Below are positions 27,143 through 43,483 of a stretch of 64,000 bases of DNA, piece by piece. The notes beneath the pieces are model-generated. The model did no database searches. It was not told where the DNA came from and saw only the letters and a list, made by a program, of their open reading frames with translations. The stretch covers positions 6,419,651 to 6,483,650 of the forward strand of contig NC_087388.1 in the NCBI RefSeq assembly GCF_963675165.1. The letters run 5' to 3'. Source of the DNA: Halichondria panicea (taxonomy: Eukaryota; Porifera; Demospongiae; Suberitida; Halichondriidae). The position numbers were made by a program, and so were the translations under genes. Numbering within the stretch: the first letter of the stretch is position 1; each line of letters starts with the position of its first letter.

Positions 27143-27405
27143 TACACACACACACACACACACACACACACACACACACACACACACACACACACACACA
27201 CACACACACACACACACACACACACACACACACACACACACACACACACACACACACACACACACACACACACACACACACACACACACACACACACACA
27301 CACACACACACACACACACACACACACACACACACACACACACACACACACACACACACACACACACACACACACACACACACACACACACACACACACA
27401 CACAC
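27143..27405. repeat. (CA)n tract at left border of PLE array
   Basis: About 263 bp of pure CA between PPT2 intron sequence (aaggctaata) and the first L copy (tactatctatttg). It marks the array edge. Confidence 0.95.
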
Positions 27406-28506
27406 TACTATCTATTTGATGCCTGTTGCTAATTCTAAGAACCAAAATTTGAGGTTAATGTTTGTTGTATGCTTGCTTCAGTTTAACCACATAGAAGAAC
27501 CCACATTCCCCAATCCCACTATCAACTACATGTACCACAAAACCTGACCCAGACAATACAGGGTTGTACTTTATACCTAAGCCCCCCTCAGAAGTTTTCT
27601 TTTAAAAGCCAACTTGAAGTATCACAGCAACCAATATCAAGTCCAAGTTAGAAGATAAGTCTTATAATTTATGTCAGCTTGACCTCAACATTTTACAGCT
27701 TTACAATAATTATTCAGCATGGCCCCAATGTGAATAGATGTACAATAACTATTGGGTGTTATATAGCACTGTAGTTGCATGTGTATGTGACTGAATGCAA
27801 CAGATGAATGGGGAGAGTTGGTGCACCATTAAAGACTCTTTAACCCATCATTCTCGGCTCTCCAGGCCGAGCATCTGTGTGCTTTTCTGTTTCTGTCTGT
27901 TTCTGTGTTGTGTGTACCTTTAGTCAATTAAAGAAATCAGATCAGCATGACCACCCCCCAGTAACATACATGTGTACATAGATAACTAATTATGAGTACA
28001 GTACTGTAATCTATAAATATAGTAGGATGTGTAATAATGTAAAGTAATACTAAGGATAAAGAAAAGGCACAGCGCTGACAGCATTTTTCTTAAAAAAGCA
28101 CAGAAAGACACATACATGTAACAGGTCAAATTCTATCAATTACTACATCTACATGTACATATAATTACCCAAACCCCCCCCCCCTGGCCTCCCTTGAGAG
28201 TAGTTAAAACCAGCAGATTAGACCCAAAAAACACAATTCATGCAAGTAAAGACTAGATCACAAGAGTTGAAGGTAATAAAGTACAAATAAATAAAACTAC
28301 ATATTAGTATAATAATAGTTAGAAGCATGAATATAAATAATAGCTAGCTAGCTTACCAGCTTGAAATTAGTTATTCCTGCAACCATTCATGTCTCATAAG
28401 TTTAATTTGTAAATGCATTATAAGGAAATAGGAGAGGTGGTTACCCAATTCTACGGTCAGATAAGGCAGTTCCTCGCAATTTATTTTTTCGTTTCAACCC
28501 CTCCAA
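27406..28506 (+). mobile_element. PLE leader L, solo copy 1
   Basis: 1.1-kb non-coding unit from tactatctatttgatgcc to acccctccaa, followed by (CA)n instead of a body. It contains a ctcggc/gccgag hairpin (ttctcggctctccaggccga) and an internal poly-C run. Nearly identical to the other four L copies. Confidence 0.9.
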
Positions 28507-28589
28507 CACACACACACACACACACACACACACACACACACACACACACACACACACACACACACACACACACACACACACACACACAC
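28507..28589. repeat. (CA)n tract between L1 and L2
   Basis: 83 bp of pure CA. It replaces the ~3.4-kb body found after L2-L4, at the exact place where the full copies have a short internal cacacac. Confidence 0.95.
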
Positions 28590-29973
28590 TACTATCTATT
28601 TGATGCCTGTTGCTAATTCTAAGAACCAAAATTTGAGGTTAATGTTTGTTGTATGCTTGCTTCAGTTTAACCACATAGAAGAACCCACATTCCCCAATCC
28701 CACTATCAACTACATGTACCACAAAACCTGACCCAGACAATACAGGGTTGTACTTTATACCTAAGCCCCCCTCAGAAGTTTTCTTTTAAAAGCCAACTTG
28801 AAGTATCACAGCAACCAATATCAAGTCCAAGTTAGAAGATAAGTCTTATAATTTATGTCAGCTTGACCTCAACATTTTACAGCTTTACAATAATTATTCA
28901 GCATGGCCCCAATGTGAATAGATGTACAATAACTATTGGGTGTTATATAGCACTGTAGTTGCATGTGTATGTGACTGAATGCAACAGATGAATGGGGAGA
29001 GTTGGTGCACCATTAAAGACTCTTTAACCCATCATTCTCGGCTCTCCAGGCCGAGCATCTGTGTGCTTTTCTGTTTCTGTCTGTTTCTGTGTTGTGTGTA
29101 CCTTTAGTCAATTAAAGAAATCAGATCAGCATGACCACCCCCCAGTAACATACATGTGTACATAGATAACTAATTATGAGTACAGTACTGTAATCTATAA
29201 ATATAGTAGAATGTGTAATAATGTAAAGTAATACTAAGGATAAAGAAAAGGCACAGCGCTGACAGCATTTTTCTTAAAAAAGCACAGAAAGACACATACA
29301 TGTAACAGGTCAAATTCTATCAATTACTACATCTACATGTACATATAATTACCCAAACCCCCCCCCCCTGGCCTCCCTTGAGAGTAGTTAAAACCAGCAG
29401 ATTAGACCCAAAAAACACAATTCATGCAAGTAAAGACTAGATCACAAGAGTTGAAGGTAATAAAGTACAAATAAATAAAACTACATATTAGTATAATAAT
29501 AGTTAGAAGCATGAATATAAATAATAGCTAGCTAGCTTACCAGCTTGAAATTAGTTATTCCTGCAACCATTCATGTCTCATAAGTTTAATTTGTAAATGC
29601 ATTATAAGGAAATAGGAGAGGTGGTTACCCAATTCTACGGTCAGATAAGGCAGTTCCTCGCAATTTATTTTTTCGTTTCAACCCCTCCAACACACACGTG
29701 CTCCTCGAGTACGGGGCTGAGTCTGTGGCGTTGGGTCTATGCCCTCTGGCATTGCGCCTTATGTGGCTGGGCCTCTCGTTTCGGGCTCAGTCGAGGAATC
29801 TGGTTTCGATATGAAGTCACTGCCCTTAGTTTATGTGGTCCACTTCTCACAACCCTAGGTTATTTAACTGAAATTTATTTAACTGAAAACCAATTAATTT
29901 GAAGAGACTGAATGGCTACTTGAATATCGGCTATATACATACTGAATTTCAACACTTAAATGTTTTCACAGCC

Positions 29974-30570
29974 ATGAATAAACAAGCTAAAGAATTCCTA
30001 AAAGCCAAATCGGCTCAGTATCAGAAACTTCGCTCAGCTGTCTCTATCCTAGAGGAAAACATTCAAAGGCAAAACCAACTGAAATTAGGAGCGATCCCGG
30101 AAGAATTCATACCGAAACCTAACTTAACCTGCGAAAACGACACTTTCCATCAACAATTTCTATCAGAATACTCCCACATCTTCACAAAATATCTAGAAGC
30201 AGTAATAACCAGCAACAACCAGAGTTTGGCCCAAACAAAGACGGCACTAGAATCTCTTGTGAATGACACAGAACGAGATTTACTTAAATTTGAAATACGT
30301 GACACAGATATCCAAATACAATACAGAAAATTCCTAAAAGAAAACAAGATCCACGGACACGTCCCCACACCTGAGTTGCAAATCAGACTAAATAAAAAAC
30401 ATCGGCCGCCAAGGCTTTCTCTCGGTGCGAAACGCAATACTCGCAGAAAACGGTGTAGAGAAATGTCTCAACACCCAATAGCCCAAAAAATTCCCAAAAC
30501 ATCACAAACTCCTTTTTTATGGGAAGGCCCCCAACCGAAACACAACCCACCAGGTGCGTCCACAATCTGA
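29974..30570 (+). CDS. PLE ORF1, unit 1 (coiled-coil/basic protein)
   Basis: 198 codons from ATG; the frame is open back to about 29899. The first part is charged and probably coiled-coil (MNKQAKEFLKAKSAQYQKLR, then a run of E/K/Q/L). The C-terminal third is basic and Pro-rich (KKHRPPRLSLGAKRNTRRKR), plausible for RNA binding. No recognised domain. It overlaps ORF2 by 52 nt in another frame; a T TTT TTA heptamer at 30513-30519 sits at the overlap in ORF1 frame. Confidence 0.7.
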   Translation: MNKQAKEFLKAKSAQYQKLRSAVSILEENIQRQNQLKLGAIPEEFIPKPNLTCENDTFHQQFLSEYSHIFTKYLEAVITSNNQSLAQTKTALESLVNDTERDLLKFEIRDTDIQIQYRKFLKENKIHGHVPTPELQIRLNKKHRPPRLSLGAKRNTRRKRCREMSQHPIAQKIPKTSQTPFLWEGPQPKHNPPGASTI

Positions 30571-42062: not shown

Positions 42063-42120
42063 GGATTGGGACCTTTACCCACAAGGGTGGGGTCCCAATC
42101 CCCCACCCTTGTGGGTAAAG
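42063..42120. repeat. Interleaved inverted repeats A-B-A'-B', unit 3
   Basis: Exact copy of the terminal structure, followed by (CA)n. Confidence 0.95.
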
Positions 42121-42121
42121 T

Positions 42122-42178
42122 CACACACACACACACACACACACACACACACACACACACACACACACACACACACAC
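42122..42178. repeat. (CA)n tract joining PLE unit 3 and L5
   Basis: 57 bp of CA between the unit 3 tail and the terminal solo leader. Confidence 0.95.
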
Positions 42179-43278
42179 TACTATCTATTTGATGCCTGTT
42201 GCTAATTCTAAGAACCAAAATTTGAGGTTAATGTTTGTTGTATGCTTGCTTCAGTTTAACCACATAGAAGAACCCACATTCCCCAATCCCACTATCAACT
42301 ACATGTACCACAAAACCTGACCCAGACAATACAGGGTTGTACTTTATACCTAAGCCCCCCTCAGAAGTTTTCTTTTAAAAGCCAACTTGAAGTATCACAG
42401 CAACCAATATCAAGTCCAAGTTAGAAGATAAGTCTTATAATTTATGTCAGCTTGACCTCAACATTTTACAGCTTTACAATAATTATTCAGCATGGCCCCA
42501 ATGTGAATAGATGTACAATAACTATTGGGTGTTATATAGCACTGTAGTTGCATGTGTATGTGACTGAATGCAACAGATGAATGGGGAGAGTTGGTGCACC
42601 ATTAAAGACTCTTTAACCCATCATTCTCGGCTCTCCAGGCCGAGCATCTGTGTGCTTTTCTGTTTCTGTCTGTTTCTGTGTTGTGTGTACCTTTAGTCAA
42701 TTAAAGAAATCAGATCAGCATGACCACCCCCCAGTAACATACATGTGTACATAGATAACTAATTATGAGTACAGTACTGTAATCTATAAATATAGTAGGA
42801 TGTGTAATAATGTAAAGTAATACTAAGGATAAAGAAAAGGCACAGCGCTGACAGCATTTTTCTTAAAAAAGCACAGAAAGACACATACATGTAACAGGTC
42901 AAATTCTATCAATTACTACATCTACATGTACATATAATTACCCAAACCCCCCCCCCTGGCCTCCCTTGAGAGTAGTTAAAACCAGCAGATTAGACCCAAA
43001 AAACACAATTCATGCAAGTAAAGACTAGATCACAAGAGTTGAAGGTAATAAAGTACAAATAAATAAAACTACATATTAGTATAATAATAGTTAGAAGCAT
43101 GAATATAAATAATAGCTAGCTAGCTTACCAGCTTGAAATTAGTTATTCCTGCAACCATTCATGTCTCATAAGTTTAATTTGTAAATGCATTATAAGGAAA
43201 TAGGAGAGGTGGTTACCCAATTCTACGGTCAGATAAGGCAGTTCCTCGCAATTTATTTTTTCGTTTCAACCCCTCCAA
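42179..43278 (+). mobile_element. PLE leader L, solo copy 5 at right edge
   Basis: Complete 1.1-kb leader without a body, ending acccctccaa and followed by (CA)n and then PPT2 intron sequence. With solo L1 it leaves the array flanked by L at both ends, like a pair of long terminal repeats. Confidence 0.9.
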
Positions 43279-43483
43279 CACACACACACACACACACACA
43301 CACACACACACACACACACACACACACACACACACACACACACACACACACACACACACACACACACACACACACACACACACACACACACACACACACA
43401 CACACACACACACACACACACACACACACACACACACACACACACACACACACACACACACACACACACACACACACACACAC
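43279..43483. repeat. (CA)n tract at right border of PLE array
   Basis: About 205 bp of CA ending 13 bp from the donor of the PPT2 exon at 43497-43592. Confidence 0.95.

Follow-up and report, generated by a model that had tools for sequence, protein, structure and literature searches.

Little is known about how a Penelope-like retroelement (PLE) chooses its insertion sites and where along its RNA copying begins; the full-length enzyme of the Anolis PLE PAc works without homology between RNA and target (PMC11167929). A locus of the sponge Halichondria panicea raises both questions. The window analyzed here, the whole 64,000-nt stretch NC_087388.1:6,419,651-6,483,650 (forward strand), contains a tandem PLE array in which every joint and both outer borders are runs of (CA)n. 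Does the element seek out CA repeats, or does it make them? The initial annotation of this DNA allowed for either, targeting of CA/TG microsatellites or templating of the repeat at the 3' end of the element. We consider it likely that this PLE integrates into (CA/TG)n in one orientation, and that target-primed reverse transcription (TPRT) starts from a cut (TG)n strand that pairs with an internal (CA)4 of the element.

CA Repeats as Probable Insertion Target

The array is built from a repeat of 1108-1109 bp (L) and a body of 3362 bp, in the order (CA)n-L-(CA)41-[L-body-(CA)33/28/28]x3-L-(CA)n. Coordinates from Tandem Repeats Finder (TRF) and BLAST agree on this order, as first proposed in the initial annotation, and the unit of about 4.5 kb recurs regularly with spacings of 4537, 4526, and 4526 bp. 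By BLAST, the copies are 99.8-100% identical to L2 and body 1, and each body contains an intact 223-aa and an intact 783-aa open reading frame (ORF), in line with the description of three whole and nearly identical bodies.

Searching the genome (131 Mb, 39 contigs) with L gave 49 listed matches, from 40 scored of 190 first-look candidates, and the flanks of all of them were read. They correspond to 26 loci including the window; the others carry three-digit numbers. Two pairs, L025/L026 and L045/L046, are duplicated single insertions, so that the independent ends number 24 on the 5' side and 22 on the 3' side. Bodies are present at 10 of the 26 loci (the window and L009-L017), and eight of the nine outside the window show the form L-body-(CA)n-L; the remaining 16 loci are lone or decayed Ls. 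Since nine other loci carry L-body-(CA)n-L or a multiple of it, the arrangement in the window is not a product of chance. The copy forms point to stepwise insertions: each consists of a lone L or of L-[body-(CA)n-L]k, where k is 1 or 2 elsewhere and 3 in the window; no other of the 26 loci has three full bodies. The two-unit case is L014, L-b-(CA)19-L-b-(CA)20-L, a non-autonomous derivative (positions 2228-7527) with a body reduced to about 0.95 kb. Because this derivative is itself arrayed in (CA)n, it probably moved in trans. A search with the body end added two loci outside this count, L028 (masked flanks) and L048; L028 and part of L033 read as N. In the truncated copy at L048 (335-1205), TG-rich DNA adjoins an inverted L end, after which comes a body end in sense orientation.

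At all 26 loci, CA-repeat DNA directly precedes the first base of the element, with CA on the sense strand of the element. The adjoining 30 bp consist of at least 80% CA at 25 loci; at L024 the value is 77%, with (CA)9. On the 3' side the same threshold is reached at 18 of the 23 loci with a retained 3' end; at L015, L020, L021, L042, and L047 the (CA)4 of the element is followed by 3-8 further CA units and then by unique sequence. Among background 30-mers, sampled no closer than 700 bp to the insertion in 20 of the 26 loci, 2,701 of 145,597 (1.9%) are at least 80% CA, and 0.5% reach this value in the TG orientation. Background pure runs of at least 10 units make up 0.62% of 143,761 bases (15 CA versus 12 TG). 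The initial annotation had named enrichment of (CA)n or (TG)n at both ends of single insertions, relative to empty alleles, as a sign of targeting.

An untargeted element could produce such flanks itself, from an RNA ending in (CA)n or by slippage. This PLE does carry (CA)n internally, and the CA at body insertions is longer than in the background or at empty paralogous sites. We nevertheless regard self-made flanks as very unlikely. Copies truncated at the 5' end, L009 (lacking 7 nt of L) and L043 (lacking about 55 nt), still adjoin the CA repeat directly, and L037 and L039, members of the divergent family C described below, start within the body right after CA-rich minisatellites. The flanking CA of these copies was therefore not copied from RNA. 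L029 is flanked on both sides by imperfect CA-rich minisatellites, and L018 and L047 have CACG-type runs on their outer side; the element encodes neither kind of repeat. L024 sits within one minisatellite unit, and the neighboring unit has (CA)24 at the same position. Empty sites contradict self-made flanks as well. At L010 and L012 the insertion separates the head (left) from the tail (right) of a dispersed repeat resembling a short interspersed nuclear element (SINE). Six empty paralogues of this repeat (L053-L058) were taken from 40 scored matches; all have uninterrupted (CA)5-13 after the head, and five keep the tail, which is missing from L053.

Truncated copies, unencoded imperfect repeats, the unit next to L024, and the empty paralogues all indicate that at the tested sites the outer CA existed before insertion, as target and not as template. 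Of the two original proposals, targeting is therefore upheld, and templating survives in part: it holds for the element's internal repeats, the (CA)n joining body to L and the (CA)4 joining L to body, not for the outer CA. The SINE-like repeat is itself abundant, with 1,663 first-look candidates of which 40 were scored, and its internal (CA)n serves as a PLE target.

Internal 3' End and Proposed Mechanism

Wherever the 3' end is retained (23 loci), the insertion terminates at the L/body junction, in CCAA(CA)n or its decayed remnant, and not at the end of the body. In the full element this junction reads CCTCCAA(CA)4 and is followed by a 7-bp hairpin (29697-29713). Insertions ending at this point are expected if reverse transcription starts internally. 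The Anolis element provides a measured parallel that supports such a start: its reverse transcription begins internally at an AC-rich stem-loop early in the ORF (PMC11167929).

The same anatomy appears in distant relatives. A protein search of the same genome found copies with 29-56% identity, which group by DNA similarity and by eye into family B (L029, L033, L038, L041, L052) and family C (L030, L031, L034, L035, L037, L039, L040); L033/L038, L031/L037, and L034/L039 are each the two ends of one copy. The best copies share 49% (L029) and 50% (L030) of residues with the window protein, and a second comparison gave 50 and 46% for pieces of L029 and 49% for L030. L029 repeats the anatomy on a different L, as CA-rich repeat, L, body, hairpin, (CA)21, L, and CA-rich repeat. 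The order hairpin-(CA)9-21-L is present at six of eight divergent body ends (L029, L030, L031, L033, L034, L035), with the hairpin of L034 partly lost. Short CA followed by a hairpin was found at all five L/body junctions read (L029, L038, L040, L041, L052). The junction stems differ in sequence between the families, CGTGCTC/GAGTACG in A, the family of the window, CGTA/TACG in B, and CCGTAC/GTACGG in C. The families also have in common an L start of the form CTAnnATnTA..TTATTTTGACTAATG, which is reduced in L029 and in young family A copies. Apart from a few decayed copies, two families at about 50% protein identity share the anatomy.

We propose the following mechanism. The GIY-YIG endonuclease would cut inside (TG)n, and the freed TG 3' end would pair with the (CA)4 beside the hairpin of the RNA and prime reverse transcription leftwards through L. 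If the enzyme finished at the start of L, a lone L would result. It might instead continue through the (CA)n that ends another body, on a second RNA or on a tandem or circular RNA, which would give L-body-(CA)n-L and, on repetition, L-[body-(CA)n-L]k. Finally, the opposite side of the cut microsatellite would be joined to the new 5' end. A version with template jumping would use a monomeric RNA that extends from CTACTATC to hairpin-(CA)n; circular or tandem RNA would be alternatives to such jumping. Because each insertion both carries (CA)n and sits in it, it is itself a target, which would explain the additional L1 of the window and aid the growth of arrays.

Body-end hairpins are far more stable than shuffled sequences (z -6.6 in family A, -8.7 in B), and for the junction region the values are -2.8 (A), -0.4 (B), and -4.1 (C). 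Scanning with a (CA)-hairpin pattern returned 23 matches, as many as the 23 of its reversed control, so that the count carries no evidential weight. By sequence and place, 19 of these 23 matches fall into families A (13), B (5), and C (1). Of the other four, the three that were fetched (L049-L051) are not PLE-like.

Several points weigh against targeting or the proposed mechanism. The junction fold of family B is no better than shuffles, as the z of -0.4 indicates. The initial annotation held that insertions flanked by non-CA sequence would speak against targeting, and such DNA was found on one side of L030, an old and truncated family C copy whose 5' flank is a gene without CA. The truncated 3' L of L035 is followed by non-CA DNA. 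The order hairpin-(CA)n-L is also missing at two decayed relatives, L032, whose body end shows neither hairpin nor CA, and L036, where the hairpin stands without CA. The flank counts cover the 40 scored of the 190 L candidates, and a second, diverged L fragment at L027 (1525-1951) was left out of the flank table. A target-site duplication would be unrecognizable inside a microsatellite. The start site of the Anolis enzyme is reported to be non-homologous to the DNA it cuts, and its preferred target is AT-rich (PMC11167929). Selection against insertions elsewhere could also sharpen the CA pattern, and the steps of cleavage and priming are deduced from inserted sequences.

Length of the Flanking CA Runs

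Pure CA runs of 129-306 units lie beside the window array, L009, L010, L014, L016, and L017. At nine of the ten body loci, L012 being the exception, at least one flanking run is longer than the longest background run read (71 units). The two runs together amount to about 259 units at L010 and about 48 at L012, which exceeds the six empty paralogues. Long runs are common in this genome, as (CA)50 gave 19,606 plus 19,523 overlapping matches. Long CA at filled sites could reflect a choice of target biased by length, or expansion at or after insertion, and the element may lengthen the CA it adjoins. In that case it might give rise to long CA microsatellites in the genome.

A telomerase-like process would take this further. 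The (CA)4 beside the hairpin would be copied repeatedly onto the cut (TG)n, lengthening it before L is reached, and one L would serve as the source of both Ls, through jumps from one monomeric RNA, starting at L and ending at the hairpin-(CA)n, to the next. The reverse transcriptases (RTs) of PLEs and telomerase have a common ancestor. We think this version unlikely; if true, the element would both make and use CA microsatellites.

Coding Capacity and Element Class

The 783-aa ORF, tested on body 1, matches RVT_1 (E 8e-9; residues 257-433) and GIY-YIG (E 5e-10; residues 691-773). The nuclease domain lies C-terminal to the RT, as in canonical endonuclease-bearing (EN+) PLEs. RVT_1 was also matched in relatives, in L030 with E 7e-10 and in L029 with E 3e-5, the latter under the curated cutoff, and the GIY-YIG domain of family B is on a separate 165-aa piece. 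Eight of 12 family A RT copies have a full frame free of stops, which agrees with the recent activity suggested in the initial annotation. Comparison of ORF2 with solved structures gave no relative at E up to 0.1, and that with viral contigs no confirmed relative. An AlphaFold model based on a five-row alignment had a mean pLDDT of 35 and was not used.

Canonical EN+ PLEs have a single ORF, and this element has two overlapping ones. ORF2 overlaps ORF1 in the -1 frame. In each of the three families the heptamer T_TTT_TTA, the sole one of its kind in body 1, is positioned in the register that a -1 frameshift needs (other copies L029, L038, L041, L037, L039, L040). In L040 a small upstream duplication alters the frame at the heptamer, and family C has no ATG at the overlap. 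The fold downstream of the heptamer is weak, so that the case for frameshifting is the conserved register. A -1 frameshift that joins ORF1 to ORF2 in one product is likely on this pattern.

Hammerhead ribozymes are common, not universal, in canonical EN+ PLEs. Rfam gave no match at gathering score in the window; in one unit, eight weak matches with E values up to 5 all fell on the body-end hairpin or next to it, and none was a ribozyme. A hammerhead core pattern matched three times in the window and never in the array. A hammerhead or other known ribozyme was rejected on these searches. A tRNA-like promoter, suspected in L by eye, was not found by a search either. We conclude that the element is, by its domains and layout, a PLE with a C-terminal GIY-YIG nuclease whose Ls are pseudo-long terminal repeats (pseudo-LTRs); the tested hallmarks of this class are present, save the single ORF and the hammerhead.

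Identity of the Ls and Origin of the Array

Within each of the nine insertions outside the window the Ls differ by zero substitutions, whereas up to 10 separate the Ls of different insertions (first 12 alignment columns trimmed; L009 and L010 each differ internally by one indel). Private variants of L010, L014, and L017 recur in every L of the respective insertion. Separate copying of 5' and 3' Ls over the generations predicts two lineages, which were not seen. One L may be copied twice per cycle, through jumps from one monomeric RNA to another or from a circular RNA, or the Ls may have been evened out by gene conversion.

Such identity is also what true LTRs would show after an LTR-type cycle with strand transfer. 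Gene conversion would give the same result, and the remaining features speak for pseudo-LTRs: neither integrase nor protease was found (ORF2 gives RVT_1 and GIY-YIG only, ORF1 nothing), the RT stands beside a GIY-YIG nuclease, the body-(CA)n-L joint and the internal end of insertions fit PLEs, and neighboring units of an array share single Ls. True LTRs are, in our judgment, very unlikely.

The five Ls of the window differ by at most one substitution between any pair. Subtype variants, one of which is a C-run that can slip, assign body 1 and L2 to the subtype of L009, and bodies 2 and 3 to that of L011; L3 mixes both. The best reading of the bodiless L1 is an insertion of its own into the CA to the left of the array. 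For the rest, jumps of the enzyme from an RNA of one subtype to one of the other would suffice, as would unequal crossing over; the exact copy number could include an assembly error.

The threefold array might not stem from a single insertion event at all, having arisen by amplification at the DNA level (unequal crossing over between Ls, CA slippage) or in part as an assembly artifact. The likeness of bodies 2 and 3, the different subtype of body 1 and L2, and the composite L3 would suit this origin; assembly is difficult across long CA runs and 99.9% repeats, and three full bodies are found at no other of the 26 loci. Set against this, a deleted derivative with other flanks, L014, independently forms a two-unit array, and a simple duplication error would not yield a body 1 unlike the others. 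We judge amplification or artifact to be a serious possibility that falls somewhat short of even chances.

Relation to Known Elements

The sponge element shares with PAc and the canonical PLEs with C-terminal endonuclease (Penelope/Poseidon) an RT followed by GIY-YIG and tandem or partial-tandem pLTR-body-pLTR copies, and with PAc an AC-rich stem-loop start near the pLTR/ORF junction that matches the ends of genomic copies. In contrast, PAc cuts AT-rich DNA and starts at a non-homologous site, whereas the (CA)n target described here is homologous to the presumed start; PAc also has a hammerhead ribozyme, and here none was found and the coding part is in two frames (PMC11167929 for PAc). Penelope of Adineta vaga resembles the sponge element in its pLTRs, 3' tail, 5' truncation, and an inverted pLTR (compare L048), and one of its 5' junctions formed by microhomology; it differs by pLTRs of about 200 bp, target-site duplications, and a preference for AT-rich simple sequences, and the word microsatellite is absent from the main text of that report (PMC3846280).

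Among elements aimed at microsatellites, Togen of fish has the same class of target, being (TG)n-specific, and differs as a non-LTR element related to NeSL, in a clade with a restriction-like endonuclease (PMC4640811). Chaetognath PLE transcripts joined to (CAA)n likewise place PLE sequence beside a microsatellite; that case consists of two expressed sequence tags with (CAA)n, and the part of the report concerned gives no insertion-site analysis (PMC2678813). The order RT then GIY-YIG sets the sponge element apart from Naiad and Chlamys. In those PLEs the nuclease precedes the RT, and they are reportedly biased to microsatellites (Craig et al. 2021). We know of no pseudo-LTR structure in microsatellite-specific non-LTR elements such as Togen.

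Among the papers listed by our literature searches, in which the microsatellite data of Craig et al. were left unchecked, none described a PLE with C-terminal EN that is confined to (CA)n. As far as these searches show, strict one-orientation (CA)n targeting by such a PLE is new, as is the use of one dinucleotide repeat as target, presumed start site, and joint, which is conserved over families at about 50% protein identity. The families offer a defined target and start site for biochemical assay, and a handle on why pseudo-LTR pairs stay identical.

Features of the Window

The array, placed in a host intron by the initial annotation, appears to lie antisense within an intron of a PPT2-like gene: the stretch to its right matches palmitoyl-protein thioesterase 2 (1pja_A, E 1.8e-8), and exons to its left (about 26.4-27.1 kb) were recognized by eye only. 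A microsatellite can in this way let 16 kb into a host gene. Table 1 lists the features.

Table 1. Features of the PLE array and the adjoining gene, in window coordinates
Feature	Position	Strand	Remark
Outer left (CA)n	27144..27404	+	Read as target microsatellite; (CA)131 at 27144-27405 by TRF
L1, additional pseudo-LTR without body	27405..28505	+	Probably a separate L-only insertion
L1-L2 (CA)n joint	28506..28588	+	
L2, pseudo-LTR of unit 1	28589..29697	+	Terminates in CCTCCAA(CA)4
(CA)4 at L/body junction	29690..29697	+	Inserted copies end here; proposed reverse-transcription start
7-bp hairpin	29697..29713	+	Immediately 3' of (CA)4; counterparts of other sequence in families B (4 bp) and C (6 bp)
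Body 1	29698..33059	+	
ORF1	29899..30570	+	223 aa from first listed start (ATG 29974); no Pfam match
T_TTT_TTA heptamer	30513..30519	+	Candidate -1 ribosomal frameshift site, ORF1 to ORF2
ORF2	30519..32870	+	783 aa, RT and C-terminal GIY-YIG
20-bp hairpin	33011..33058	+	Body 3' end, right before (CA)n; z -6.6
(CA)33 internal joint	33060..33125	+	
L3	33126..34233	+	
Body 2	34234..37595	+	ORF1 34435-35106, ORF2 35055-37406
(CA)28 internal joint	37596..37651	+	
L4	37652..38759	+	
Body 3	38760..42121	+	ORF1 38961-39632, ORF2 39581-41932
(CA)28 internal joint	42122..42177	+	
L5, final pseudo-LTR	42178..43285	+	Insertion stops at L/body point
Outer right (CA)103	43278..43483	+	Run length and position by TRF; 4 units the element's own, remainder read as target
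PPT2-like gene, host exon-like stretch	43623..43793	-	Array antisense in its intron

Within L, a conserved block GGGGAGAGTTGG..AAAGA..TTTAACCC.. followed by a small hairpin was noted by eye (window about 27808-27875), and a similar block occurs in family C (L031, L034, L035) and near positions 240-310 of L029. The window also contains TRAF-like genes. A dispersed repeat of about 250 bp is present at 13220-13492, 54304-54570, and 63551-63792, the latter two copies being 78-82% alike to the first.

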